This document shows, one piece after another, positions 16,158-49,538 of a stretch of 50,183 nucleotides of DNA. The stretch is from Nitrospinaceae bacterium (GTDB lineage: Bacteria > Nitrospinota > Nitrospinia > Nitrospinales > Nitrospinaceae), in the NCBI GenBank assembly GCA_029261395.1, contig JAJDBJ010000084.1, positions 1 through 50,183 on the forward strand, given 5' to 3'. Under the pieces are notes generated by a model. It saw only the letters and a program-made list of their open reading frames with translations, made no database searches and was not told where the DNA came from. Made by a program: the position numbers and the translations under genes. Position 1 is the stretch's first letter; every line of letters starts with the position of its first letter.

Positions 16158-17915
16158 CTACAAAACTTCCGAGGGATGTTCCTGTGCGATGAACAATTCG
16201 TTGGCCAGTTCGATGTCTTTCGGGAAATGGATTTCCAGCCAGCCTTTGTGGATTTCCAGGTAATGGACGTTGAAGCCGCGGTCGATCATCTCCTGAATCA
16301 GGTCGGTCAGGCGGATTTGGGAAATGTCCTCCGCTTCCTGTACTTTGCCTTCCAGATTTTTCAGCATGTCCTCATAGGTCTGGAGGAACTGCTCGGCTCC
16401 GGTTTTCGAAAATTTGGCGAGACCGATAAACTCGTGGGTGGCTGACGCTGGGTCAATATTTTTACCGATTTTGGCAACGGCGTTCTGGTGATCGAAGTTG
16501 ATACTGCGGCGGTTCCGGTTCTGCCGGTTGCGGCTGATCACGTAATCGGTCGCCTTGCCGTCGACCGACTCCAGGTACTGAATGGAGTTGTCCAGTGCCA
16601 GAACGATATCTTCCTTGGATGCCAGCAATTGTGCGACCACATGGTTTTCGAGCAGAATGTCCGAGTACAGCATCAGAAAACCGTTGTGCATTTTGTCCTG
16701 AGCGGTGAGCAGGCTGTCCAGCTCGGTGCCTTTTTGGTAGTCCTTGTTGGGTCGGAACGAAATTCCTTCGCCTTTCATTTTGTCGCCGGCGTAACCGGTC
16801 ACCACGGTGATATCTGTCAGATGGTTCTGGTTGAGAGTCTGGGCCTGGCGCGCGAGCAGGGTTTTGCCCGCGATATCCGCCATGGATTTGGGTGTGTCTT
16901 TGAGAACGGGTGCGATGGCTGGCGCTTCTCCGGCGGCAGGGATGATGACCGGGATGTTGGTATTGGTCTCGTCCTGCTGGTCTTTTTCTTTAACGTCCAG
17001 AAAGCCGACCGCATCGAATATTTCACGCACCGGGGCGCACAAAGGGTCCGCTTCGAGCGAGCGTTGGTTCGATAGAATGGATTTGGCAGTGTCGCGCATT
17101 GCTTTGTACGCGGCGCGTAGAAAGTGGTTGGCATAAATGATGATCTGGAATCCCGCCACCTGCAGTTCTTCTTCCAGGATATTGTTGTAGGTGGTCGGTA
17201 CGCACACCAGAGGTTTACTCATTTCCAGTTCTTTGAGGAGGCTCTGATATTTGCCGGCAAACTCCATGATCTCATCCGGTTGCTTGGACTTGGAGTGGAT
17301 CATGATGCCGTCGACCCCTGCCAGTAGATAAATCCGGGCGCGGTTGAGTGCGTCTTCCATGCCGGTGCCGGCGATGAGGCTTTCGATGCGGGCGATGATC
17401 ATGAAGTCATCGGTGGCCTGCACTTTTTTGCCGCGTTTGATTTTTTGCGCAAACACTTCGGGTTCTTGCAGGGTTTGAGTGGTTCCGGCTTCCAGGCTGT
17501 TGCGTTTGGGGAATACCTTATCTTCGATGATGACCGCCGATACGCCGGCCCGTTCCATTTTGGATACCATGTACTCGAAGGTATTCGGGTCGCCGCCGGT
17601 ATCGCCGTCAACGATCATGGGTTTTTGCGTGACGGTCAGGATTTCATGGATGGTATGCAGACGGGAATCGAAGCTGATCACTTCAATGTCGGGATGGCCC
17701 TTGGACGCGGAATCGGTCAGACTGCTCTCCCAGATGGCGTCGAACTGAAGGGTGACCGACTGGTTGCCGGACTTGCCTTCAACGCTGGTGGTGTCGGCGA
17801 CGATGCCGCTGATCCCGTTGTGGGCTTCCATAACGCGGACGAGTTTGCCCTGAGTGAGTAAAGCTTTGAGTTTGCCGCGTCGGTCTTCGGGTAAATTCTG
17901 GCTGAGCAGTGTCAT
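16158..17915 (-). CDS. pepM: Phosphoenolpyruvate mutase fused to a nucleotidyltransferase domain
   Basis: PEP mutase (PepM) rearranges phosphoenolpyruvate to phosphonopyruvate, the first step of phosphonate synthesis. Residues 15-300 form the PepM/isocitrate-lyase barrel with DGDTGG (103-108) and the diagnostic mutase signature EDKVFPKRNS (131-140, EDKx5NS), which separates it from lyases. Residues 320-560 resemble an NTP-transferase such as PntC, the CTP:phosphonoalkyl cytidylyltransferase, with GTELDSLLTAQ and a YSDI acidic motif. The nucleotide-binding loop reads AAGEAPAIAPVLKDTPKSM, lacking the Gly and Arg of the usual AAGxGxRL. No phosphonopyruvate decarboxylase or aminotransferase lies in the window. 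The start overlaps the upstream hypothetical gene by 4 bp (ATGA). It ends the envelope cluster, suggesting a surface phosphonate. Confidence 0.88.
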   Translation of the reverse strand: MTLLSQNLPEDRRGKLKALLTQGKLVRVMEAHNGISGIVADTTSVEGKSGNQSVTLQFDAIWESSLTDSASKGHPDIEVISFDSRLHTIHEILTVTQKPMIVDGDTGGDPNTFEYMVSKMERAGVSAVIIEDKVFPKRNSLEAGTTQTLQEPEVFAQKIKRGKKVQATDDFMIIARIESLIAGTGMEDALNRARIYLLAGVDGIMIHSKSKQPDEIMEFAGKYQSLLKELEMSKPLVCVPTTYNNILEEELQVAGFQIIIYANHFLRAAYKAMRDTAKSILSNQRSLEADPLCAPVREIFDAVGFLDVKEKDQQDETNTNIPVIIPAAGEAPAIAPVLKDTPKSMADIAGKTLLARQAQTLNQNHLTDITVVTGYAGDKMKGEGISFRPNKDYQKGTELDSLLTAQDKMHNGFLMLYSDILLENHVVAQLLASKEDIVLALDNSIQYLESVDGKATDYVISRNRQNRNRRSINFDHQNAVAKIGKNIDPASATHEFIGLAKFSKTGAEQFLQTYEDMLKNLEGKVQEAEDISQIRLTDLIQEMIDRGFNVHYLEIHKGWLEIHFPKDIELANELFIAQEHPSEVL

Positions 17916-18230: not shown

Positions 18231-19601
18231 TTAACTAAAGACCCTCATGATGTCATTGTAAAAAGCGAAAACCATTAGCGAGAGCAACATGAATAGCCCG
18301 ACCTGGGCGGCCCGCTCCCGGTTGGATTCGCTGATGGGTTTGCCTTTGACGATTTCGATCAGGAAAAAAAGGATGTGTCCGCCATCCAGAACGGGAATGG
18401 GTAAGAGATTCAAGAGCCCCAGATTGATGCTGAGCAGGGCGGTCAACAAGACAAAATCCAGGATCCCCTGCTCTGCATGGTCGCCATAAGCCTGGAAGAT
18501 CTGGATAGGCCCGCCGATGTTTTTCGGTGAAATAGACCCGGTGATCAGTTTTTTAATACTGGTGCCGATCAAGTGCGTTACTTCCCAGGTTTTTTCCAAC
18601 CCGCGTAGGATGGCCCCAAAGAACGAATATCGCTCGGTTATCATGACTCCGGAAATGCCCAATCCCATATAGCCGTAGCTCACATCTTTGCCTTTAAGAT
18701 CGAGGCTCGTTCTTAGTTCGGGAGTTACTTTAAGAGTTTGTTTCTGTCCATTCCTCAAGATATGAAAGTTCAGCTCCTGTCCGGGCTTATCCAAAGCGGC
18801 CGTTTTTATGTCTGAGAATCCTATGACTTGAGTGTCATCAATGGATAGAATATCGTCGCCTACCTGCAACCCGGCTCTATCTGCGGGTGAACCCGCTTTG
18901 ATAGCAGCGACCCGGCGTCCCAGCCGTTCGATGCCGATCAACCCCACGGTTTTTTTGTCGCCAAAGAGGTTGGCCACTTCTTTTGCGTTGGGTGTCATAG
19001 GGAGTGTGATAACTGTTTTTGAATCGCGCTGAATCACGAACTCCATTTGTTTGCCCGGAGCGTTGTGGATGATGTCTTGCAGTTCATGCCAGTACTGAAC
19101 TTTGTTGCCGTCAATTTCAATAATCCGATCACCCGTCTGGAGACCTGCGGCCATGGCGGGGGAGTCATCGTGAATTTTTCCGACATCCGTACTGCTTGCG
19201 GGTATGCCCACAGTATAGATGCAGACGTAAATAGCGATGGCAAACAGGACATTGAACAGGGGGCCGCCGAATGCTATGGCAAGTCTCTGATACACGGATG
19301 CCGCGGAGAAGGAGCCCTGGGTGTCCGGGAGTTCTTCTGTCGGATCTTCTCCCTTCATTTTGACGTAACCGCCCAGAGGAATGGCGGCGATCAGGTATTC
19401 GGTGTCGCCGGATTTGAAGCCGATAATCTTGGGGCCAAATCCAATGGAAAATTTTTCGACTGTCACCCCGCATTTGCGGGCGATCAGAAAATGACCCAGC
19501 TCATGGATGAAAATGAGCGCGGCCAAACCTGTCAGGAAAGCCGTCATTTTGAAACCGAAGGACAGGAAGGCGTCGAGAGAGAATGCGGTAAAATCAAACA
19601 T
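18231..19601 (-). CDS. rseP: RseP-type site-2 intramembrane zinc metalloprotease
   Basis: This 456-residue regulated intramembrane protease cleaves anti-sigma factors and remnant signal peptides. The active-site HELGH (33-37) sits in the first membrane helix. Two tandem PDZ domains follow (about 115-195 and 205-285, each with an ExG/AGLQxGD-type core: MAAGLQTGDRIIEIDG and DRAGLQVGDDILSIDD). The C-terminal membrane region holds the third zinc-ligand motif PVLDGGH. The two-PDZ form resembles E. coli RseP. It sits 11 bp downstream of lolA in an envelope cluster. No sigma-E or RseA homologue is visible here, so the substrate is unknown. Confidence 0.95.
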   Translation of the reverse strand: MFDFTAFSLDAFLSFGFKMTAFLTGLAALIFIHELGHFLIARKCGVTVEKFSIGFGPKIIGFKSGDTEYLIAAIPLGGYVKMKGEDPTEELPDTQGSFSAASVYQRLAIAFGGPLFNVLFAIAIYVCIYTVGIPASSTDVGKIHDDSPAMAAGLQTGDRIIEIDGNKVQYWHELQDIIHNAPGKQMEFVIQRDSKTVITLPMTPNAKEVANLFGDKKTVGLIGIERLGRRVAAIKAGSPADRAGLQVGDDILSIDDTQVIGFSDIKTAALDKPGQELNFHILRNGQKQTLKVTPELRTSLDLKGKDVSYGYMGLGISGVMITERYSFFGAILRGLEKTWEVTHLIGTSIKKLITGSISPKNIGGPIQIFQAYGDHAEQGILDFVLLTALLSINLGLLNLLPIPVLDGGHILFFLIEIVKGKPISESNRERAAQVGLFMLLSLMVFAFYNDIMRVFS

Positions 19602-19612
19602 GATAAGTAAAA

Positions 19613-20272
19613 CTACTCCATGGAAGAAAGATCAATGAGTTCCACCCCTTTAGGAACCTCGAACAGGAACAATTTCTCTTCAAGGCTGGGGTTGGTTCGG
19701 ATGTCTTTGAATAACATTTCTGTTTTGTTTCCTAAATTATCATACACCCGGGACCCGACGATCTGGTAGTTTTTCTTGTCGGCCAGCAGTACCATTTTGG
19801 AGAGGTTTTGCGCCTTGTCACGCGGGATCATTTCGACAACGTAAAGCCTGCGTTCTTCAGTCACTTCCCCGATGGTGAACGATTCGGTCAGCTTGCCACG
19901 ACCCGCCAGGAACAGGGCAGGGGTGTTGGAGGAGTAGATATTTTGGACTTTCATTTTAGTGACCTGCTTTTCGTCGGGCAGGTACAGCCAGAGGCCCTGA
20001 TCGTTGCTCACCAGAATTTGGCGATCCGGAGCCTTGTAATCCCATTTCATTTTACCGGGTTTTTTGATGGAAACGAAACCTTCTGCTTTCTGCGACTGTC
20101 CCAGAACCTTCAGATACGATTTTTGAACGAACCGGGCCTGAAAGGTGTCAGTGGAATCGTATTGTTTTTGGATGGCACCGACAACGGCGACGGAATCCAG
20201 AGCAAAGGCTGATCCGGGCAGGAACCCTGATAAAAACAGGATAAAAAGAACGTTACAGGTTTTAAGATTCAT
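19613..20272 (-). CDS. lolA: Outer-membrane lipoprotein carrier protein LolA
   Basis: LolA is the periplasmic chaperone that ferries lipoproteins from the inner-membrane LolCDE complex to the outer membrane. The 219-residue precursor has a signal peptide (hydrophobic residues 8-20, cleavage expected after SAFA at 24). Family features follow: FQARFVQKSYLKVLGQSQKAEG, GKMKWDYKAPDRQILVSNDQ, GLWLYLPDEKQV and FLAGRGKLTESF. The ATG overlaps the purN stop by 4 bp (ATGA), so the two are translationally coupled. Its presence confirms a diderm envelope. Confidence 0.92.
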   Translation of the reverse strand: MNLKTCNVLFILFLSGFLPGSAFALDSVAVVGAIQKQYDSTDTFQARFVQKSYLKVLGQSQKAEGFVSIKKPGKMKWDYKAPDRQILVSNDQGLWLYLPDEKQVTKMKVQNIYSSNTPALFLAGRGKLTESFTIGEVTEERRLYVVEMIPRDKAQNLSKMVLLADKKNYQIVGSRVYDNLGNKTEMLFKDIRTNPSLEEKLFLFEVPKGVELIDLSSME

Positions 20273-20898
20273 TGAGACACGCTTTCTTTGTAGGAGACCT
20301 TTCGGTTTTCAATATGCAGGCGGTTTTCGACAATCATTTGTATCGCTCTCGGATAAATGAGGTGTTCCTGGATCAAAATGCGTTCGGCCAGTATCGTTGC
20401 GTCATCGGACGGGAGGACGGGGACGACCGCCTGCAGGATGATGGGGCCGCCATCGACTTCTTCGTTGACGAAATGAACGGTGCACCCGGAGAACTTGACT
20501 CCGTAATCGATGGCCTTTTGCTGGACGTCCAGCCCCGGAAACGCAGGCAGGAGCGACGGATGGATATTGATGATTTTGTCAGGAAACATGCCGATGAATT
20601 CTGGATTGAGAATACGCATATACCCCGCCAGGCACACCAGGTCGACCCGGCGTTTTTTGAGTTCGCCGGCCAATGTCAGGTCGTATTCCTTTTTACTGGC
20701 GAATTGTTTGGGGTCGAAGTAGGCCGTTTCAATGCCCTGTTTCTGAGCCCGCTCCAGGGCAGGTGCATCTTTTTTATTGCTTAGGACCACGGCGATGTCG
20801 GCGTTCAGTTCACCCTCTTGAATGGCGTCGATGATCGCCTGCAAATTGGTGCCGCGTCCGGATACGAGTATTCCGATTTTGAAACGGTTGGAAGTCAT
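20269..20898 (-). CDS. purN: Phosphoribosylglycinamide formyltransferase (GAR transformylase)
   Basis: PurN transfers the formyl group from 10-formyl-THF to GAR in purine synthesis. The 209-residue protein has the N-terminal IGILVSGRGTNLQAIIDAI and the catalytic triad context: Asn in INIHPSLLPAFPG, His in GCTVHFVNEEVDG and Asp in the same stretch (VDGGPII). The length is typical. It lies 79 bp downstream of the LpxC fusion and overlaps lolA by 4 bp. It is a metabolic gene embedded in an envelope cluster, with no functional link that I can see beyond co-transcription. Confidence 0.96.
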   Translation of the reverse strand: MTSNRFKIGILVSGRGTNLQAIIDAIQEGELNADIAVVLSNKKDAPALERAQKQGIETAYFDPKQFASKKEYDLTLAGELKKRRVDLVCLAGYMRILNPEFIGMFPDKIINIHPSLLPAFPGLDVQQKAIDYGVKFSGCTVHFVNEEVDGGPIILQAVVPVLPSDDATILAERILIQEHLIYPRAIQMIVENRLHIENRKVSYKESVSQ

Positions 20899-20977: not shown

Positions 20978-23038
20978 TCAATGAACGGTCACCGCTTGTT
21001 GGGCCAGGTCTTCCTTAATGGCTTTTAGAAGTCCGATGTTTTGGGTGTGTCCTGATTTGTGAGCTTTGATATAGCCGCGGATCGGTTTTCCCAGCAGATA
21101 AAAATCCCCGAGGACATCCAGGATTTTGTGGCGTGCGAATTCGTTGTCGTACCGCAATGTGGTGTTGAGGACTTTCTCATCCCCCAGCAGGATAAAGTTG
21201 TCCAGCTTACCGCCCACGCCGAAACCCATTTTGTTCAGCATGGCCACATCTTTCACAAATCCGAAGGTGCGTGCCGGCGCGATTTCTTCTTTGAAACTCT
21301 CGGCCCCTTTGAACTCAAAGGTGTGTTCCATGATGCCGATGGGTGCCGGATATTCCATATGGTAACTGACTTTGAAGCCGTCATAAGGCTCAATCGAAAT
21401 ATGCGCGCCACCGTCTTCTTTCGATCCGAAGGTGTACGTTTTATCAATCACCAGTTCTTCGTAAACCTCATCCTGTTCCTCGAAACCGCCATCTTCGATC
21501 AATTGGCAGAAATCTTTGGCCGACCCGTCCATCACGGGGGCCTCGTCTCCGATTTTGATCAAAAGGTTATGGACCCGGTACATGTGAAGGGTGGCCATAA
21601 TGTGTTCGATCGTGGAGACGGATGCGTAACCCTTGCGCAGACTGGTGGCGTATTCCGTAGATTGCACGTTTTCCACCTTGGCGGGGATGGTACTTCCGCT
21701 GGAAATATCACCGAAGATGATACCGCTACCCGGAGGCAAGGGTTGCATGATGAGACCGGTTTTGATTCCGGAGTGCAGTCCGCGTCCACACAGCACCACA
21801 CTGCGTTTTAAAGTGCGCTGAAGCGGACGGTCTCCCTTTTTGCCTTTTGATGCGCTTGATTTTGTCTGGGCTTGGGGGTGTTTGAGCAGGGCTGATATGT
21901 CCTTCAAGGTGATTTCTTCGTTGGGGTGTACGGTCCGGGCAATTTGATCCAGCACTGAACGCAATTCCTTGAAGTTTTCCGGCCAGTCGTATTCACAAAG
22001 AGCCCGCATGGTTTCCTCGGTGAAGTTTTTACAAACGACTTTGCCCTTGTCTTCCAAATCTTCAAAATATTCTTCTACCAGGGTTGGGATCAAGGCCCGG
22101 TTATCCCTTAAGGGCGGCACGCTGATACTGTTTTCCTTTAAAGTTTCGTACAGGTCCGGGTTGAATTCTCCGTTTTCAACCATAGCCTCCAGGTCTTTTG
22201 TGGAGGAGGCAAAAATTCTGTCGGGAATAAAGCCTTCCGATTTTCCGGGGGAAGTGGACTTTAAAGCGGTCGCCAGTTTTGCCTGAAGATCTTGGCTCAT
22301 GAAGTCGATATTTTTTAAATAGACCGCCTTTTTCCCGGCGCCTCCACGGGTTGGTTTTACTGGCTGGCCTTTTTCATCTTGATGAATGAACAGTTCGATT
22401 TGGATTTTCGGCATCGAACGGAGCGCGCAATTGATTTTGTGGAGAGGGAAATTGGACTTTTTGCTTTTGTGATGAATGGCCTGCGCGATATATTCCTTGC
22501 CGGTTCCCACTTCACCCTGGATCAGGAGGGGGGCGTCGGTTTTGGACGCTCGGGTCACCGCTTTCTTGACCTCCACCATCATTTCAAAGCAGTGAGGAAG
22601 TTCGTGCTTAACGGCATCCTTGTTGTTGATTCCGTTCATTCGGCCTTTTCTTTGCTTGAGTGCCTTCTCAACGGACAAGACCAGCTGATTGAGTGAAAAC
22701 GGCTTCTCGATAAAATCGTAGGCTCCCAACTTGGTCGCTTTCACGGCCGTGTCGATGGTTCCGTGACCGGACATCACCAATACTTCAATTTCAGGATGAT
22801 AGGTTTTGATGGCTTGCAAGACTTCGATCCCATCCATGCCTGGAATCCAGATATCCAGAAGAACCAGATCGGGGGGCTCGGACTGCACCAATTCCAGGGC
22901 ATCCAACCCGTCTTCGGCCGTGACGATATCGTATCCCTCGTCGTTTAGTATTTCCTGAAGAGAGGTCACTATATTTTTTTCGTCATCGACAATGAGGATT
23001 CTTTCTTTAGTCAAGGAAATCTCCGTGATTGGTTTCAT
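20978..23038 (-). CDS. lpxC: Fusion: response-regulator receiver + degenerate sigma54-type AAA domain + LpxC deacetylase
   Basis: One uninterrupted 686-codon frame. Residues 13-128 are an NtrC-type receiver with the acidic pocket (Asp18, Asp19), phospho-acceptor Asp62 and Lys112, all intact. Residues 145-385 match a sigma54-activator AAA domain: Walker A GEVGTGKE (175-182) is kept, but GAFTGA is absent (HQDEKGQPVKPTRGG instead). Walker B reads AVYLKNID, without Asp-Glu. After a Ser/Lys-rich linker (389-405), residues 407-680 are LpxC, UDP-3-O-acyl-GlcNAc deacetylase, the committed step of lipid A synthesis. Equivalents of E. coli Glu78/His79 (478/479), His238 (637), Lys239 (638), Asp242 (641) and His265 (664) are present. 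There is no DNA-binding domain. Neighbours are trmB (21 bp) and purN. Confidence 0.93.
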   Translation of the reverse strand: MKPITEISLTKERILIVDDEKNIVTSLQEILNDEGYDIVTAEDGLDALELVQSEPPDLVLLDIWIPGMDGIEVLQAIKTYHPEIEVLVMSGHGTIDTAVKATKLGAYDFIEKPFSLNQLVLSVEKALKQRKGRMNGINNKDAVKHELPHCFEMMVEVKKAVTRASKTDAPLLIQGEVGTGKEYIAQAIHHKSKKSNFPLHKINCALRSMPKIQIELFIHQDEKGQPVKPTRGGAGKKAVYLKNIDFMSQDLQAKLATALKSTSPGKSEGFIPDRIFASSTKDLEAMVENGEFNPDLYETLKENSISVPPLRDNRALIPTLVEEYFEDLEDKGKVVCKNFTEETMRALCEYDWPENFKELRSVLDQIARTVHPNEEITLKDISALLKHPQAQTKSSASKGKKGDRPLQRTLKRSVVLCGRGLHSGIKTGLIMQPLPPGSGIIFGDISSGSTIPAKVENVQSTEYATSLRKGYASVSTIEHIMATLHMYRVHNLLIKIGDEAPVMDGSAKDFCQLIEDGGFEEQDEVYEELVIDKTYTFGSKEDGGAHISIEPYDGFKVSYHMEYPAPIGIMEHTFEFKGAESFKEEIAPARTFGFVKDVAMLNKMGFGVGGKLDNFILLGDEKVLNTTLRYDNEFARHKILDVLGDFYLLGKPIRGYIKAHKSGHTQNIGLLKAIKEDLAQQAVTVH

Positions 23039-23059: not shown

Positions 23060-23716
23060 TTATGCAGTGGGAGCCATTGCATAATCCTGCTCTTTGGAAA
23101 ACTCGAAATAATAAATTTTCTTTCCGGCTTCTATAAACGTCTTCTCATATTTGGTTTTGGGGATATCGTTTCGTTCATGGAGAAACCCCAAGTCCTCGTG
23201 CGGATTGTAGAATTGGGTGTTCGCCTGCATGACCTCAAGAATTTCCTGCGCATAGGATTCGACGTCCGTTGCGATGCGGACTTTCCCTTGCGGTGCCAAC
23301 TTACTCGCCAGGTTCTCCACAAATTGCGGTTTGATCAACCGTCTCTTGTGATGTCTTTTTTTGGGCCAGGGGTCCGGAAAATTAATGAATATTTCGCTGA
23401 GTTCACCCTCTTCAAAAAGAATAGGAATTTTTTCGCTGGCATTACCGTAAGCGACGCGGATGTTTTTTATATGAAGTCGATCCATGCGTGTGACGACCTT
23501 GCGAATCCCTTTGTGGTAAAAATCCATTCCGATGAAATTACTTTCGGGTTCGCGAATGGCCATATCGATGAGGAAATTGCCGTTACCGAAGCCGATTTCC
23601 AGTTTCAGTGGGTGACTGTTTTCAAACAACCCGCGCCAGTCCGGTCGTTCTTCGGGGTCCAGGAAGCAAGGATGTTCGTTGACGATTGTATCGAATGGAA
23701 TGAGTCGTTTTGCCAT
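23060..23716 (-). CDS. trmB: tRNA (guanine-N7-)-methyltransferase
   Basis: TrmB uses S-adenosylmethionine to methylate G46 in the tRNA variable loop. The 218-residue protein shows LEIGFGNGNFLIDMA (SAM-binding motif I), SNFIGMDFYHKGIRKV, IRVAYGNASEKIPILF and the signature FINFPDPWPKKRHHKRRLI, followed by a C-terminal TKYEKTF. The ATG at 23716 fits the family. It lies between greA (15 bp) and the LpxC fusion (21 bp) in one minus-strand cluster. Confidence 0.95.
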   Translation of the reverse strand: MAKRLIPFDTIVNEHPCFLDPEERPDWRGLFENSHPLKLEIGFGNGNFLIDMAIREPESNFIGMDFYHKGIRKVVTRMDRLHIKNIRVAYGNASEKIPILFEEGELSEIFINFPDPWPKKRHHKRRLIKPQFVENLASKLAPQGKVRIATDVESYAQEILEVMQANTQFYNPHEDLGFLHERNDIPKTKYEKTFIEAGKKIYYFEFSKEQDYAMAPTA

Positions 23717-33564: not shown

Positions 33565-35043
33565 ATGATTCCCAATTCTTCTAAAGTTCTGATTCTTATT
33601 GTAATGATGGCCGTATTGGTTCTACCCCTGTCTTTTGTCGGGAATGATGGCGGCGGTCTCCTTGTTCAAAAGGCCTACGCGGTCAGTACCAAGAGCCAGC
33701 CTCTGGGAAGCAATATCTTTGTTGAGATTGCCAAGAAGCAGAACCCGGCGGTCGTCAACATCAGCACCAAAACGAAGCGGCAGGCGCGTCCGCCCCGGCC
33801 TCCGAGAGATCCCCAGGCCCCTCCGGGAGGGCAGGATCCTTTTCAGGATTTTTATGACAAGTTTTTCGGCGACCGTGAGAGAAAACCGCGAGCCGGTATG
33901 GGGTCGGGTTTTATTATCGATAAGGAAGGATATATTCTCACCAACAACCATGTCGTCGACGGCGCTCATGAAATTGTTGTTCTGATCCAGGACGGTAATA
34001 ACGGAGAAAAAGAATACGATGCCGAGCTGATTGGAACCGACTCCAAAACGGATATCGCCCTGATCAAGCTGGTTCTGAAAGACGGAGGCAGGACAAACTT
34101 CCCTACGTTGAACCTGGGCAACTCCGATAACCTGGAGGTCGGCGAATGGGTGGTTGCCATCGGAAATCCTTTTGGTCTCAGCCATACCGTCACCGTCGGC
34201 GTGGTCAGCGCCAAGGAGCGCAATATCGGCTCCGGCCCGTATGATGAATTCATTCAGACCGACGCGTCCATCAATCCCGGCAACAGTGGCGGCCCGCTGA
34301 TGAACATCAAAGGGGATGTTATCGGAATCAATACCGCCATCATTTCGGGAAATACCGGCGGCAACGTAGGTATTGGTTTCGCCATCCCGATCAACGTTGC
34401 CAAAGACATCCTGAAAGACCTGAAGGAAAAAGGAACCGTAACCCGCGGCTGGCTGGGGGTCATGATTCAGAAGATCACTCCCGATCTGGCAGAATCGTTC
34501 AACCTCGATCGTACCGAAGGCGCCCTTGTCGGGGACGTTATTCCCAACAGCCCGGCGGAGAAGGCGGGTATCAAGCGAGGGGATGTTATCGTCAAATTCG
34601 ACCAGGAAGAAGTGAGGACCATGGAAGCCCTTCCAAAGATTGTCGGTAGCACCACACCGGGTAAGGCGGTCAAGGTGGAAGTCATTCGAGACGGCAAGAA
34701 AAAAGTGTTGGAGGTGACCATCGCAGTCCTCAAGGATGAGAAAACGAAAGTGGCCGCACTGGATCCCATAGGAATTCAGGTGCAGGATATTACTGCGGAC
34801 ATCGCGCAAAGCCTGAACCTGGGCGATGTGGAAGGCGTGCTGGTTTCGGATGTGACTCCCGGGGGACCCGGCGGTGATTCGGGTCTCAAGCGCGGTGACA
34901 TTATTTCCGAAGTCAACCGGAATAAAATCAAAAACACCGGCGATTATAATGCAATCGCCAGCAAGCTGAAGTCCGGTGATACCGCTCTCATGCTGGTCAA
35001 ACGGGGTGGAACGACTATTTATATTGCGGTTAAGCTCAAGTAA
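33565..35043 (+). CDS. Do-family periplasmic serine protease (DegP/HtrA)
   Basis: This 492-residue HtrA protease degrades or refolds misfolded envelope proteins. An N-terminal signal (about 8-25) is followed by the trypsin-like domain with the triad His129 (TNNHVVDG), Asp163 (KTDIALIK) and Ser241 (NPGNSGGPL). A Pro-rich loop, RPPRPPRDPQAPPGGQDPF, lies in the LA-loop position. Two PDZ domains follow (about 280-375 and 390-485). This is the DegP/DegQ architecture. Two hairpin terminators follow its stop, then a second HtrA gene. The upstream 265 bp contains a possible small ORF and the presumed promoter. Confidence 0.95.
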   Translation: MIPNSSKVLILIVMMAVLVLPLSFVGNDGGGLLVQKAYAVSTKSQPLGSNIFVEIAKKQNPAVVNISTKTKRQARPPRPPRDPQAPPGGQDPFQDFYDKFFGDRERKPRAGMGSGFIIDKEGYILTNNHVVDGAHEIVVLIQDGNNGEKEYDAELIGTDSKTDIALIKLVLKDGGRTNFPTLNLGNSDNLEVGEWVVAIGNPFGLSHTVTVGVVSAKERNIGSGPYDEFIQTDASINPGNSGGPLMNIKGDVIGINTAIISGNTGGNVGIGFAIPINVAKDILKDLKEKGTVTRGWLGVMIQKITPDLAESFNLDRTEGALVGDVIPNSPAEKAGIKRGDVIVKFDQEEVRTMEALPKIVGSTTPGKAVKVEVIRDGKKKVLEVTIAVLKDEKTKVAALDPIGIQVQDITADIAQSLNLGDVEGVLVSDVTPGGPGGDSGLKRGDIISEVNRNKIKNTGDYNAIASKLKSGDTALMLVKRGGTTIYIAVKLK

Positions 35044-35086: not shown

Positions 35087-35096
35087 CTGATTGAAT

Positions 35097-35132
35097 AAAC
35101 GGTGGGTCCGCTGGATCCGCCGTTTCTTTTTT
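35097..35132 (+). terminator. Strong terminator between the two htrA genes
   Basis: A 13-bp stem (AAACGGTGGGTCC with GGATCCGCCGTTT, two G-U pairs) closes a 3-nt loop and is followed by CTTTTTT. The U-tract ends just before the Shine-Dalgarno of the second htrA (start 35145). Transcripts from the first gene should mostly stop here. Confidence 0.8.
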
Positions 35133-35144
35133 GGAAGGGGTTGT

Positions 35145-36536
35145 ATGCAAAACTCTCGATGTGTTTTCTGGAGCCGAACTCTGCTTTTGGGATTGATCCT
35201 GTGGGGGGCGGTCGCCGGCCCGGCGTCCGCTTACGATACAGACAATCGAAGAACTCCCATCGTTACCGCTGTCGAACAGGTGGGCCCTGCCGTTGTCAAT
35301 ATTTTCACAGAAGAAGCGCCACGCCTGACGGAAAACCCGTTCCGGGGTTTCATGGGCGACAGCCTGTTCGAAAAATATTTTGAGGAGTTCTACCAGCAAA
35401 GAGAGTCCGACCGGCGCAGTCTCGGTTCCGGCGTGATCATCGATCCCCAAGGATACATACTCACCAACGAACATGTCGTGGCCAAGGCGGTGCGCGTCAA
35501 GGTTACTCTGATCGACAACCGGGAGTTTGAGGGCAAGGTGGTGGGGGCCGATATCAAATCCGACCTTGCCGTCATCAAAATCGATCCCGACCGGCCACTA
35601 CCCTACGTGGAAATGGGCCGCTCCAATGACCTGATGATTGGTGAAACCGTCGTCGCCATCGGCAATCCCTTCGGCCTCAAGCACACGGTGACCACCGGCA
35701 TCATCAGCGCAGTGGACCGCACCATCCGCGCCAGCGAAAAACAGGTGTTCAACGATTTCATACAGGTCGACGCATCGATCAATCCCGGCAACAGCGGCGG
35801 TCCACTGATCAATATCAACGGTTCGCTGATCGGTATCAACACCGCCATCTTTAAAGACGCGCAGGGTATTGGCTTCGCCATCCCCATCGACAAGGCACGG
35901 CGCATCGTCGACAATCTGCTCCAGTACGGCAAAGTACGACGCGGCTGGCTCGGTGTTTCGGTGCAGGATTTGACTCCCAAAGCGGCGCGCCACTTTGGCC
36001 TGGATCACGTCCACGGCGTGCTGGTGACCAACGTGTTCCGCAGAAGTCCGGCGAAACGTGCCGGTCTCCAGCCCGGAGATATTTTACTGCGCATCGACGG
36101 TCACGAAATCGCCGACAAGTCGGATTACTTCCGCCAGATCGCTTCGTACACGGTGGATGATCATTTTCGGCTCAAATATCTGCGCGACGGCCACCGGCAC
36201 AAGGCGATTGTTCATATTTCTCCCATTTCCAAAGATGCCGCTGGGGAAATGGCGAAACAATGGCTCGGCATATCGGTCAAGGAGATTAACTGGAAACACG
36301 CCAAGCGGCACCGTATAATGGCGCGTAATGGCGTGGTGGTGACGAAAGTCCGGCCAAGAGGCCCAAGCGGAGAAGTGGGTATCCTTCCCGGCGACGTCAT
36401 CCGTCAAATGAACGAAAGCAAGATACGGAACCTGGGCGAGTTCAATACGGCCATCCTGGAAGCGGGCAAACTCAGCTCCGTTTTGCTCCTCGTCCAGCGC
36501 GGAAGAAACTCCTATTATGTTACATTGGAGCCGTAA
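35145..36536 (+). CDS. Second Do-family serine protease (HtrA)
   Basis: This 463-residue HtrA paralogue starts at ATG 35145 with AAGGGG just upstream. A signal peptide (about 10-29, ending PASA) is followed by the protease domain with His110 (TNEHVV), Asp140 (KSDLAVIK) and Ser217 (NPGNSGGPL). Two PDZ domains complete it (about 255-345 and 365-455). The long Pro-rich loop of the first copy is missing, giving a DegQ/DegS-like catalytic domain with two PDZs. A TTG-initiated extension from 35091 is rejected because it runs through the terminator hairpin. It precedes ligA by 42 bp on the same strand. Confidence 0.94.
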   Translation: MQNSRCVFWSRTLLLGLILWGAVAGPASAYDTDNRRTPIVTAVEQVGPAVVNIFTEEAPRLTENPFRGFMGDSLFEKYFEEFYQQRESDRRSLGSGVIIDPQGYILTNEHVVAKAVRVKVTLIDNREFEGKVVGADIKSDLAVIKIDPDRPLPYVEMGRSNDLMIGETVVAIGNPFGLKHTVTTGIISAVDRTIRASEKQVFNDFIQVDASINPGNSGGPLININGSLIGINTAIFKDAQGIGFAIPIDKARRIVDNLLQYGKVRRGWLGVSVQDLTPKAARHFGLDHVHGVLVTNVFRRSPAKRAGLQPGDILLRIDGHEIADKSDYFRQIASYTVDDHFRLKYLRDGHRHKAIVHISPISKDAAGEMAKQWLGISVKEINWKHAKRHRIMARNGVVVTKVRPRGPSGEVGILPGDVIRQMNESKIRNLGEFNTAILEAGKLSSVLLLVQRGRNSYYVTLEP

Positions 36537-40532: not shown

Positions 40533-42248
40533 GTGGTTTTGATCAAACATGATGTCTTAATAGTGGGAGCGGGCTTGGCGGGAATGCGCGCCGCTTTGGA
40601 GGTTTGCAAGGATCTGGATGTGGGTCTGCTGACCAAGGTGTACCCGTCGCGGTCGCACAGTGGTGCCGCACAGGGGGGCATTGCGGCCTCCCTCGGCAAC
40701 TCTGAGGACGACAGCTGGGAAGAGCATATGTTCGACACCATCAAGGGCGGGGACTACCTGTCCGATCAGGACGCAGTGGAGGAGTATGTTAAAGCCGCGC
40801 CCAAGGTTATTTATGAGCTTGAGCACATGGGTTGTACCTTCAGCCGTACCGAGGATGGCAAAATCGCCCAGCGCAGTTTTGGCGGCCATTCCAAACCCCG
40901 CGCCTGTTTTTCCGCCGACCGTACCGGGCACGCTATTCTTCACGCTTTGCACGAGCAGGTGTTGAAAAACGCCAAGTCCATCAAAATATATTCCGAATGG
41001 TACATGCACCAGTTGATAGTTGAGGACGGGCGTTGCGGCGGTGTGGTGGTGAGCAACATCCGCACTGGCGAAGTGGAAGTGATTCACGCCAAAGCGGTGG
41101 TCTTTGCCACCGGCGGCTACGGTCGGGTTTTTCAGATTACCACCAACGCATTTGCGGGAACGGCGGACGGGGCCATTGCGGCGTTTCGCGCCGGGATACC
41201 GCTGGAAGATTCGGAGTTTGTGCAGTTTCATCCATCCGGATTATACCGTCAGGGAATTTTGTTTTCCGAAGCGGCGCGAGGCGAGGGCGGATACCTGCTC
41301 AACGGCAAGGGCGAACGGTTCATGGAGCAGTATGCACCGTCGCGTATGGAACTGGCGCCGCGCGATATCGTGGCGCGGGCCGAGCAGAGCGAGATCGATG
41401 CCGGCCGCGGCGTCGACGGGAAAGATATTATCCATCTGGACCTGCGTCACTTGGGGGAGGCGCGCATTATGGAACGCCTGCCGCAGATTCGCCAGTTGGG
41501 AATCGATTTTATCGGCGTCGATTGCGTGACGGATCCTCTGCCGATTCAACCTTCTGCGCATTACTCGATGGGGGGCATCCCGACGGACATGTTCGGGCAG
41601 GTGGTGATCGATGAAAAAGGGACGCCGATGAAAGGCTTTTTTGCGGCGGGAGAATGTGCCTGCGTTTCGGTTCATGGCGCCAACCGTTTGGGCACCAACT
41701 CATTGTTGGAAGCAACAGTGTTTGGAGAACGCACCGGGAGGTCGGCCTTGAAATATGCAAGAAATGCTGAGTTTAGCAAGGTTAACGAAAGTCATGAAAA
41801 GGCCCGGGTGTTGAATCAGGTGGAAGAGATATTTCAGCGGGATGGCTCTGAAAGTTACAACGATATCCGCAATGAGATGAAAGAAGTGATGATGGCCAAG
41901 TGTGGGGTGTTTCGTGACGCAGAAAAACTCAAATCCTGCATTGCCACCATTCAGGACTTGAAGGAGCGTTATAAAAAAGGCAAGGTAACGGATAAGGGCC
42001 AGTTGTTCAATACCGAGTTGTATGAAATTATCGAATTGGGCAACATGCTGGAGATGGCGGAAATTATCAGTACCGCCGCGTTGGCGCGACAGGAAAGCCG
42101 GGGCGGTCATTTCCGAACGGATTTCCCGAAGCGTGATGACAAGGATTTTCTAAAGCACTCTCTGGTGTCTCGTAACGAGAGTGGAATGGAGTTGAAATAC
42201 AAGCCGGTGGTAATCACCCGATATCAACCCAAAGAAAGAACGTATTGA
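40533..42248 (+). CDS. sdhA: Succinate dehydrogenase/fumarate reductase flavoprotein subunit
   Basis: This 571-residue flavoprotein interconverts succinate and fumarate. It has the N-terminal FAD motif [18 protein letters not shown], the FAD-linked histidine in [21 protein letters not shown]-type [12 protein letters not shown], the active-site stretch [10 protein letters not shown] and [15 protein letters not shown]. The start is GTG at 40533 with AGGAG only 3 nt upstream; TTG at 40539 with 9-nt spacing is an alternative. It overlaps sdhB by one base (TGATG). Direction (oxidative or reductive TCA) cannot be told from sequence. Confidence 0.95.
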
Positions 42249-43192
42249 TGGCAAAGTTTCGAATCAAGCGATACAACCCGGAAAAGCAGGCAGAGCCTTA
42301 TTACGAGGAGTTCGATTACGATATTCCCGAGGGTGCGACCCTGCTCGACTGTCTGAATCATCTCAAATGGAACGTGGACGGGACGCTGACCTATCGCATG
42401 TCCTGCCGCAGTGCCATCTGTGGGTCGTGTGCGATGAAGGGCAATGGCCACGCCTTGCTGGCTTGTCAGAAACAGGCGGCTCATCTGTTGAAGGACGGAA
42501 GCGATACCATCACCATCGAACCGCTTGGGAATATGCCGGTCATCAAGGATCTGGCTACCGACTTCCAGCAGTTCTGGGACAAGGTCGATCAGGTGAAGCC
42601 TTATCTCCAGAACAAAGAAAAACCGCCGGAGCGGGAGCGTCAGCAAAGTCCCCAGCAGTTTAGGAAAATTGACGATGCCACCACCTGCATCATGTGCGGC
42701 GCCTGTTATTCCGATTGTAATGTTTTGGAAGTGGACAAGAATTTCCTGGGACCGGCGGCGCTGGCGAAGGCGCAACGGTTCGTGGGCGATTCGCGTGACC
42801 AGGCCACCCGCGATCGCATCAAGGAATTGAGCAAGCCGGGCGGTATGTGGGATTGCACTCACTGCGGGGAATGCGTGGAACGGTGCCCCAAACCGGCGGA
42901 ACCGTTTTACCGCATCAAGGAATTGATGGCTGTTGGGTTGGAGGAAGGCGTGACCAATAACGTTGGTGCCCGGCATGCGTTGTCATTCGTAAAATCGGTG
43001 AAACACAGCGGCCGCCTGAACGAGAGCAAGATTCCCATCGAGTCGATGGGGTATTTCAACATCAAGGGACTTCTGGATCTGGTTCCCGTCGGACTGCGGA
43101 TGTTGTTGAAGATGAAGATACCGCCCATCATTCACAAGCCCATTGACGATGCGAAGGATGTGCGACGAATTTTTGAGGAGTTTGGCGAATGA
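42248..43192 (+). CDS. sdhB: Succinate dehydrogenase/fumarate reductase iron-sulfur subunit with ferredoxin-type distal cluster
   Basis: This 314-residue subunit passes electrons from FAD towards the quinone side. The N-terminal 2Fe-2S domain has [15 protein letters not shown]. The C-terminal domain has [11 protein letters not shown] and [14 protein letters not shown]. In ordinary SdhB the last motif binds a 3Fe-4S cluster and lacks one cysteine; here it has the full CxxCxxCxxxCP ferredoxin pattern. That is as reported for archaeal class-E enzymes (Acidianus, Sulfolobus), so a second 4Fe-4S is likely. The ATG overlaps the sdhA stop, and the stop overlaps the next gene. Confidence 0.94.
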
Positions 43193-44073
43193 AGTTTGCA
43201 TTGTTTACCGGTTGCGTGGCCAAAGGGGCGACGCGTGAGTTGATGTTGGCTACGATCAAATCCGCCGAGGCGCTTGGAATCGATTTTATCGAGATGAAAA
43301 GTGCCGCCTGCTGTGGTGCAGGGGTGATCTCTGAGAAGAATCCGGTACTGACCGATGCCATCAATGCGCGTACGTTTGCGCTGGCGGAGGAACAAGGTCT
43401 GGATATCATCACCATCTGCTCGACCTGCCAGGGCAACCTCAAAAAATCCGAATGCCACCTCGATGAAGATGTGGAGTACAAGGACAAGATCAATCATGTT
43501 CTCAAGGATGGCGGCCATCAGTACGAGGGTGGCAAGATCAAGATCAAACATTTTTCCAACATCCTGGCGACGCCGGAAGGCAAGGCCCTGCTCAAGGAAA
43601 AAATCAAACGTCCGTTGACCGGCCTCAAGACGGCGGGATTTTACGGTTGTTATGTATTGCGTCCTTCCGAATTGTCGGAGTACGAGGATCCGGACAACCC
43701 CAAAGAACTGGAAGAGTTGTTTGAAATTCTCGGCGCCACGCCGGTTTACTATCCCAGCCGAATCAAGTGTTGCGGGTTTCCCATCATCATGATGAATAAG
43801 GATGCATCGCACGCCATGGCGGGGAATGCGCTGATCGAAGCGGTGGAAGGCGGGGCCGATTGCGTGGTCACCGGTTGTCCGTTGTGTCATCTGAGTCTCG
43901 ACTCCTACCAGCCCGAAATCGAAAGTATGCAAAAGAAGCATTACTCCATCCCCATTCTGCACCTGCCGCAGTTGGTGGCTTTGGCCCTGGGATTCAGTCC
44001 GGAAGAAATCGGCATGGACAAACATATCGTGTCCACCGTCGGACTGGATAAGATTCTCGCCCAACACGCCTGA
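43189..44073 (+). CDS. SdhE-type HdrB-like CCG-domain subunit
   Basis: This 294-residue protein carries two complete cysteine-rich CCG motifs. The first is Cys9, Cys41-Cys42, Cys77/Cys80 (Cx31CCx34CxxC). The second is Cys154, Cys194-Cys195, Cys230/Cys233 (Cx39CCx34CxxC). This is the fold of heterodisulfide reductase subunit B and of SdhE in non-classical succinate:quinone oxidoreductases, where it replaces the usual haem-bearing membrane anchors. It overlaps sdhB by 4 bp, so it is the third subunit of this complex. No SdhC/D-like membrane protein follows. Membrane attachment is probably by amphipathic helices; the quinone-reducing role is inferred from archaeal homologues. Confidence 0.88.
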
Positions 44074-47807: not shown

Positions 47808-49421
47808 TCAGAAGGTGCGCGCGTTGACGTGTTCCTGAACGCTTTTTTGCACGGCGGTAAAGACATCGTCCACCGTGATGGCGGTCATGCATTCGATCTG
47901 TGTCGGGCAACTGTGCTTGTGACAGAAACTGCACGGCTGAAGTTTGACGACCACTTCGTGATTATTGCCGTGCGGTCGGCTGTAGACCGGATTGGTCGGG
48001 CCGAACAGTGTCACCGTGGGTACCCCCTGCGCCGCCGACAGGTGCATCGGCCCGGTATCGCATCCGATACACAAACTCATTCGCTTGAGCATGGCGATCG
48101 ATTCATGCATCGTATTTTTGGGAGACACCCAATGCTTCTCTTTCATCATATCAGAAAGTTTTTGAACCGCCTCCTCCTCGCCGGGGCCCCAGGTGAACAG
48201 GACATTGAATCCCAGTTCCCGGGTGATGCGGTCTCCCAGTTCAGCGAACCGTTCCATCGGCCAGCGTTTGGTGGGGAATCCCACTCCATGATGAATGGCG
48301 ACGGTGGGTTTCGCGGATAGTTCCGGGTTGGCTTTCCAGTACGCCTCGATATGCGCTTCGGCGGCTTCGGGAACCACCAGCGGAAATTCACCAGACACCG
48401 TTTCGGCACCGAGGGCCTGGATCATTGACAGGTATCGGTCAACGACATGAACCTTTTTCCCCATAAACGGAATTTTTTCGTGAGTGAACCAGGCGTTGGG
48501 GCGTTCCCGGCAATCGTGTTTGTCGAATCCGACAATGCGCGGAGCCTGGGTGAGAAAAGCGATGACGCCGGTTTTGATCAGTCCCTGCATGTCGACGACC
48601 AGATCGAAGCGGCCTCGTATCTGCTTGAGACTGGCCCTGAATTCCCGCCAGCTTTGCAGGTTCCAGTATTTGCGCCAGTGACGGATGCGCACCACGATCA
48701 ACTCGTCCAGGTCCGGGTTGTTGTACAAGAGATCCTTGCACTTTTCCTCGACGATCCACGCGATGTGAGCTTTCGGATACAGTTGGCGCAGGGTTCTCAA
48801 CGCCGGCAGAGCGTGGATCACATCACCCAATGAACTGAGTTTGATCAGTAGAATATTTTGCGGGGGTAGGCTCATGTCAGCAGTGCGGGGTTTGAAATCA
48901 TATGAAGGAAACAGCGACCGGTAAAGTCGGCAAAACAGAATTCCTATCATAATACCACACAAGGCCCCCAACAGAATATCGGAAGGATAGTGGACGCCGA
49001 AATATACGCGGGTCAGGCTGCCCAGGAGCGCCAGAGGAAAAACCACCCAGCCCGATCCCCTGAAAAACAGAGCCGCTACCGTGGCGAGTGCAAACAGATT
49101 TCCCGCCTGAATGGACGGCAGTGAGTAAGAGTGGGTGCAGTGGACGGCATTAAGAATACTCAGGGCATGGCAGGGGCGGGGCCGGGCAAACAACGGCTTC
49201 AGGATTTGGTGGGCAATAAAATCGTTGATCATGATTGCCAGGAGGGCAACGATGATAAACCAGAGCCCCTGTTTTTTCCTCAATACCAAAAGAGCGACAA
49301 CAGTGGCTATTGCCGGAACCGGATAAATGTTTTTATCGGTGAGCAGGTCAACCCAAGCGTTCAAGGTCAGGGATTGCAAATGTTCCTTGATCCAGTAGAA
49401 TACCGCGGTGTCGAAATCCAT
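47808..49421 (-). CDS. Fusion: PAP2-family membrane phosphatase domain + GT9 heptosyltransferase-like domain
   Basis: From ATG 49421 (GGAAG upstream) the protein has 537 residues. Residues 1-185 are a PAP2 (phosphatidic acid phosphatase 2) membrane domain with about five helices. Motif 1 KPLFARPRP and motif 3 TRVYFGVHYPSD are present, but motif 2 reads SLPSIQAGN, with Gln where the general-acid His of PSGH belongs. Residues about 190-537 are a family 9 glycosyltransferase of the WaaC/WaaF/WaaQ kind: ILLIKLSSLGDVIHALPALR, DLVVDMQGLIKTG, IGCDTGPMHLSAAQGVPTV and TLFGPTNP. GT9 enzymes add heptose to LPS core. It probably acts at the inner-membrane cytoplasmic face, with the PAP2 part on the lipid carrier or lipid A side. 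Confidence 0.87.
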   Translation of the reverse strand: MDFDTAVFYWIKEHLQSLTLNAWVDLLTDKNIYPVPAIATVVALLVLRKKQGLWFIIVALLAIMINDFIAHQILKPLFARPRPCHALSILNAVHCTHSYSLPSIQAGNLFALATVAALFFRGSGWVVFPLALLGSLTRVYFGVHYPSDILLGALCGIMIGILFCRLYRSLFPSYDFKPRTADMSLPPQNILLIKLSSLGDVIHALPALRTLRQLYPKAHIAWIVEEKCKDLLYNNPDLDELIVVRIRHWRKYWNLQSWREFRASLKQIRGRFDLVVDMQGLIKTGVIAFLTQAPRIVGFDKHDCRERPNAWFTHEKIPFMGKKVHVVDRYLSMIQALGAETVSGEFPLVVPEAAEAHIEAYWKANPELSAKPTVAIHHGVGFPTKRWPMERFAELGDRITRELGFNVLFTWGPGEEEAVQKLSDMMKEKHWVSPKNTMHESIAMLKRMSLCIGCDTGPMHLSAAQGVPTVTLFGPTNPVYSRPHGNNHEVVVKLQPCSFCHKHSCPTQIECMTAITVDDVFTAVQKSVQEHVNARTF

Positions 49422-49538
49422 AAAGCTTCCGGTATGGGAGATAAAAGGCAGGTGTCCCAGTTTAGGATTAAATCGGCTCAAGTCTATTGAGATTAAAAGA
49501 GTGAGTCAATTGATTTATTGTATGGGGATTATTCTTTA

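Follow-up and report, generated by a model that had tools for sequence, protein, structure and literature searches.

LpxC, a drug target, commits the cell to lipid A synthesis and is the point at which that pathway is controlled; it is essential in most bacteria that make lipopolysaccharide (LPS), and its control outside the Enterobacteria is poorly understood. Response regulators with an enzymatic output include the CheB, HD-GYP, and GGDEF types, whose targets are signalling molecules or receptors. Studies of two-component systems, NtrYX among them, have tied signalling to lpxC at the level of the gene. Loss of NtrYX in R. sphaeroides raised lpxC mRNA 8.8-fold and increased LPS, and NtrX was not found to be bound at lpxC (PMC7240162). 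Inhibition of lpxC transcription by NtrYX has been described in two Alphaproteobacteria (2025 review, PMC12444477). In D. vulgaris, lpxC is the sole target of one response regulator, and the Syntrophobacter fumaroxidans operon orthologous to that of the D. vulgaris regulator has lpxC as its immediate upstream neighbour (PMC3333781). A DUF4390 protein, PlrP, was proposed to be a third component, besides NtrX and NtrY, in some NtrYX systems (PMC13001219).

The locus described here lies in a window (the whole stretch of DNA that was analysed, 50,183 nucleotides from a Nitrospinaceae bacterium), and encodes a receiver (REC), a sigma54-type AAA+ domain, and LpxC in one protein. As in NtrYX, the REC-AAA part is NtrX-like, NtrY is encoded adjacently in basal lineages, and a DUF4390 gene lies beside ntrY; the output, however, is an enzyme rather than sigma54 activation or DNA binding, and the GAFTGA motif and arginine finger are gone. 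Like ordinary LpxC, the fusion has the full domain with all catalytic residues, is predicted to be an active deacetylase, and is the only LpxC of its genome (97% complete), which also carries LpxB; unlike ordinary LpxC, it is extended at the N-terminus by about 400 residues that include a receiver, and is set apart by one long branch. The bifunctional LpxC-FabZ enzyme is also a natural LpxC fusion, but its partner is C-terminal and enzymatic, whereas no FabZ domain was matched in the window protein by Pfam, and PRK13188 scored far below the NCBIfam cut-off. The CheB, HD-GYP, and GGDEF regulators likewise place a receiver ahead of an enzyme, but the output of the fusion is biosynthetic. Alphaproteobacterial NtrYX and the D. 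vulgaris regulator target the same step through transcription, whereas the fusion unites regulator and target in one polypeptide (PMC7240162, PMC3333781).

A preliminary description of the locus knew of no characterised enzyme of this architecture, and the open-access literature on the fusion, on Nitrospina LpxC, and on surveys of response-regulator outputs likewise yielded no description; automatic entries for the architecture, with no description attached, may exist in domain databases. The present analysis adds a probable kinase (NtrY), the NtrX origin, the spread of the fusion, and its likely single origin.

The fusion gene and its conserved residues

The fusion gene occupies positions 20978-23038 of the minus strand (no strand had been given before), and all features of the protein described below lie on that strand. 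The earlier claim that one 686-codon frame joins receiver, AAA, and LpxC was borne out: the frame begins with ATG and has zero internal stops, the four Pfam matches (REC, AAA+, lid, and LpxC) are all well above cut-off, the NCBIfam lpxC model TIGR00325 agrees, and 60 intact homologues were found in Nitrospinota. The receiver (residues 14-123; 22670-22999) matches PF00072 Response_reg at 2e-33, and its phosphorylation residues had been assigned correctly as D18/D19, D62, S90, and K112. D19, D62, S90, and K112 are invariant across 60 family members, including the predicted phosphorylation site, Asp62 (22853-22855), and the D18 position is Glu in four.

The sigma54-type AAA+ domain (residues 153-305; 22124-22582; PF00158 Sigma54_activat, 2e-21) is degenerate. 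In the window protein it has neither GAFTGA nor the arginine finger, and its Walker B segment reads VYLKNID, whereas the Walker A motif, GEVGTGKE (residues 175-182; 22493-22516), is kept here and in almost every AAA-bearing member, and nucleotides may therefore still be bound. The lid (AAA_lid_14, residues 314-396; 21851-22099; PF25601, 8e-12) and a variable linker (approximately residues 385-406; 21821-21886) lead into the LpxC domain (residues 407-675; 21014-21820). The latter scored 270.5 bits against a cut-off of 27 for PF03331 (2e-80), and 234.6 bits against a cut-off of 187.25 for TIGR00325, and matched PDB LpxC at 1e-53. Its metal and catalytic residues, also recognised in the preliminary description, are invariant across the 60 members: Glu478-His479 (catalytic base and zinc ligand; 21602-21607), His637, Lys638, and Asp641 (zinc ligands and the lysine; 21116-21130), and His664 (21047-21049). 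Residues peculiar to the LpxC of the fused clade include S413, V415, T427, G428, K495, E515, and P564, the leading candidates for a surface that would contact REC.

Production of LpxC as a separate product from an internal start was considered and rejected. Only 17 of the 60 members have an ATG in frame close to where LpxC begins, a start of any kind with a ribosome-site-like sequence is present in 4 of 60, and the window gene has one TTG without such a sequence.

Spread of the fusion

An LpxC was detected in 65 of 77 genomes of Nitrospinota, a marine phylum, in one copy each. In all 60 ORFs uncut by contig ends it stands behind a receiver, the other five ORFs being cut by contig ends, and no stand-alone LpxC was seen in the 77 genomes searched. 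The search across genomes called for earlier thus showed a spread far wider than the window, covering all uncut Nitrospinota genes and other phylum-level groups. A sequencing or assembly error joining two genes, the artefact named at the outset, is ruled out, since 60 Nitrospinota genomes, including metagenome-assembled genomes (MAGs) separately named and from separate projects, read through an intact fusion.

About 100 family sequences were located. A "phylum" of the relatives is here the grouping assigned in the genome set, and the groups outside Nitrospinota share only the domain label with the window. In the phylum of G117, the fusion was found in 4/4 genomes, with LpxC frames of 731-755 residues; in that of G138 and G279, 20/20 LpxC lie in frames of at least 538 residues, and REC was confirmed in the seven that were checked. 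Further carriers beyond Nitrospinota are G148, G315, G106, G123, G213/G375, and G162. Among the matches listed for the remaining genomes of two broad samples (291 and 386), the fusion was not found, and weaker cases may escape such a search. The long frames of G144, G174, G247, and G269 were rejected as further fusions because a REC match is absent; that of G144 continues into FabZ-like sequence.

Three genomes deserve separate mention. The genome G023 (96% complete, in 10 contigs) yielded matches to LpxB and NtrY and none to LpxC, although its genus-mates carry the fusion; a gap in the assembly is more likely than loss of LPS, since LpxB is retained. G022 is a reduced genome with an AAA-less REC-LpxC (L073), and neither full-length NtrY nor LpxB was found in its fragmented assembly. 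In G294, the fusion frame (L170:1058-3943) is open for about 290 codons upstream of REC.

Origin from NtrX

The best NCBIfam regulator model for the REC-AAA part was found to be that of NtrX (NF051870), at 260.5 bits, below its full-length cut-off of 600; unfused NtrX proteins likewise fall below this cut-off (487-521 bits). The best solved structure was 5m7n, deposited as "Nitrogen assimilation regulatory protein", which we take to be Brucella NtrX. The AAA domain had been called NtrC-like, but both the model and the structure place REC-AAA as NtrX-like rather than generically NtrC-like. By this sequence kinship, the REC-AAA part derives from NtrX. No separate NtrX was seen among the response-regulator matches to the fusion in the window's genome, because the second-best response regulator matches it at only 33% identity.

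In a tree of LpxC (72 rows), one long branch with 100/100 support lies between the fused and the unfused sequences; a single origin is enough to explain this, and is likely. Three unfused genomes (L193, L194, and L195) carry lpxC, ntrY, and ntrX as separate neighbours in that order, and their NtrX proteins retain GAFTGA and the arginine-finger segment FREDLYYRLN. A rearrangement would also have been needed, since lpxC lies upstream of ntrY in these genomes but behind ntrX in the fusion.

Decay of the AAA domain and constraint on the receiver

The identity between phylum-level groups is 59% for REC and 57% for LpxC, but 27% for AAA, and AAA identity is lower than REC identity in 372/372 pairs; among the three unfused NtrX, AAA identity is 58-61%. 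Within the window's own genus, dN/dS values of 0.03-0.06 (REC) and 0.02-0.06 (LpxC) compare with 0.10-0.19 (AAA) and 0.4-0.8 (linker). The earlier statements that the Walker B acids are lost and that no helix-turn-helix (HTH) follows are true of the window protein but not of the whole family: some fused members retain the acid pair, and others (e.g., L024, L046, and L108) have a Fis-type HTH remnant, located in the linker region.

The retention of Walker A in nearly all AAA-bearing members, and of a Fis-like HTH in some, could be taken to mean that the fusion continues to activate sigma54-dependent transcription while also carrying an enzyme. GAFTGA and the arginine finger, both present in the three unfused NtrX, were missing from every fused AAA checked, however, and the window protein has no HTH; such a role is scarcely credible, and the earlier conclusion that sigma54 activation has been lost stands.

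AAA is missing altogether from four members. A variable linker, about 50 residues long, connects REC with LpxC in G022, G067, and G068, and in G001 an HTH remnant sits between REC and LpxC; the L042 protein is a compact AAA-less REC-LpxC. On the LpxC tree, AAA was lost at least two times inside the fused clade, and REC was kept each time. Decay of AAA and HTH would be expected if the fusion were a frozen accident, in which LpxC was joined to a dying regulator whose domains persist at the N-terminus only for translation or folding. Such an accident is very improbable, however, given that REC is constrained like the enzyme and outlives the deletion of everything between it and LpxC. The constraint on REC, the decay of AAA, and the AAA-less members together argue that the receiver is the selected control element, and that AAA is dispensable.

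The NtrY kinase and the gene neighbourhood

An NtrY-like kinase gene lies directly upstream of the fusion, often overlapping it, in three Nitrospinota families (f5, f7, and f9) and in the majority of the other fused groups. The fullest cluster (L105) reads mutS, DUF4390, ntrY, fusion, purN, lolA, rseP. In the window's order this cluster is split: mutS-DUF4390-ntrY lies at G000:C17, and the window holds trmB-fusion-purN-lolA-rseP, all on the minus strand and identified by Pfam and NCBIfam. Here trmB (23060-23716) is the upstream neighbour, in the place of NtrY in basal lineages, and purN (20269-20898), lolA (19613-20272), and rseP (18231-19601) are neighbours conserved in relatives; purN has the same order in L105, L106, L166, L189, and L191.

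The unlinked ntrY of the window's genome (G000:C17:56979-59108) encodes a membrane kinase with NtrY_N, HAMP, PAS, HisKA, and HATPase domains and the motif HEIKN, which is typical of kinase/phosphatases (PMC13001219). Of 31 near-complete Nitrospinota genomes, 30 gave long NtrY matches, that of G001 in two contig-end pieces; the sole exception, G022, has no full-length NtrY in its fragmented assembly, though REC is kept. NtrY is thus the probable kinase for the fused receiver. Since NtrY is a membrane protein, the receiver might instead be a tether, which docks on NtrY in the inner membrane and holds LpxC close to the kinase or to membrane-bound enzymes without switching its activity. Surfaces for docking of REC on the kinase would be conserved in this case too, but docking alone leaves the retention of Asp62, Lys112, and the acidic residues unexplained, which makes a pure tether improbable.

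Other features of the window include a 557-residue ORF on the minus strand (47808-49481) that joins a PAP2 phosphatase domain to a GT9 heptosyltransferase, with a score above the cut-off of the heptosyltransferase I model, and is another lipid/LPS fusion. A PEP mutase fused to a nucleotidyltransferase domain (16158-17915, minus strand) suggests phosphonate synthesis. On the plus strand, genes for a succinate dehydrogenase/fumarate reductase flavoprotein, an iron-sulfur subunit, and an HdrB-like cysteine-rich subunit follow one another (40533-44073), and two HtrA/DegP-like trypsin-PDZ proteases are encoded in tandem (33565-35043 and 35091-36536).

A proposed mechanism for receiver control of LpxC

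These findings suggest that an envelope sensor controls the LpxC enzyme itself, rather than its gene. In the proposed mechanism, the fusion is an NtrX response regulator whose output was swapped for LpxC. The NtrY-type membrane histidine kinase (NtrY_N sensor region, HAMP, PAS, and HEIKN core), probably modulated by the DUF4390 protein, would phosphorylate and dephosphorylate Asp62, and the phosphorylation state of Asp62 would set the activity or amount of LpxC post-translationally. We place the probability that LpxC is the output of an NtrYX system in this sense at about 0.62. The larger reading, in which this circuit also had one origin and became fixed across several phylum-level lineages, is held more tentatively and, taken jointly, falls somewhat short of an even chance. 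Several points weigh against the NtrYX-output reading: NtrY is unlinked in the window's order, no full-length NtrY was seen in the fragmented assembly of G022 although REC is kept there, the receiver of G067 has a short deletion just past the acidic pair, and an AlphaFold model of the fusion (10-row alignment) was of low confidence, too poor to reveal a REC-LpxC interface.

The preliminary description had proposed that phosphorylation of the receiver probably controls the deacetylase directly, by oligomerisation or by exposing the active site. Control by the receiver is the most economical reading, because REC is constrained like LpxC, while AAA decays and is outlived by REC when deleted. Oligomerisation through AAA, on the other hand, is unlikely as a general mechanism, since AAA is absent from some members, in which a non-conserved linker of about 50 residues connects REC and LpxC. 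Such a long linker favours reversible REC-LpxC docking, REC dimerisation, or a proteolysis switch over a rigid lever.

A sub-case of two-component control is that the receiver sets the amount of LpxC rather than its catalysis, by recruiting or repelling FtsH, Lon, or ClpXP in a phosphorylation-dependent manner, in cis, like an RssB-type adaptor. LpxC of E. coli is under proteolytic control, and other proteases have been reported elsewhere (review, PMC12444477). In the fusion, the tail past the LpxC domain is short and non-conserved, and thus shows no evident E. coli-like degron, whose part the N-terminal domains could play; a degradation switch would also suit a flexible linker. No adaptor or degron has been identified, however, and control through proteolysis specifically is judged somewhat unlikely, though a serious contender. 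Whichever way the receiver acts on LpxC, signalling by NtrY is expected to restrain it, by analogy with the Alphaproteobacteria, in which NtrYX restrains lpxC expression.

Implications

The fusion would place the NtrYX-lpxC link inside one protein, and so give a physical form to a connection between NtrYX and lipid A that has so far been based on transcript and LPS measurements. Regulator and target stand on one polypeptide, with a candidate kinase (NtrY) and a single residue (Asp62) through which control can be tested. The family offers a natural case of a signalling circuit that shifts from control of a gene to direct control of an enzyme, with intermediates of the shift preserved as HTH remnants, half-dead AAA domains, and AAA deletions. 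Such a circuit may also be a means by which the outer membrane is tuned in nitrite-oxidising and related uncultured bacteria.
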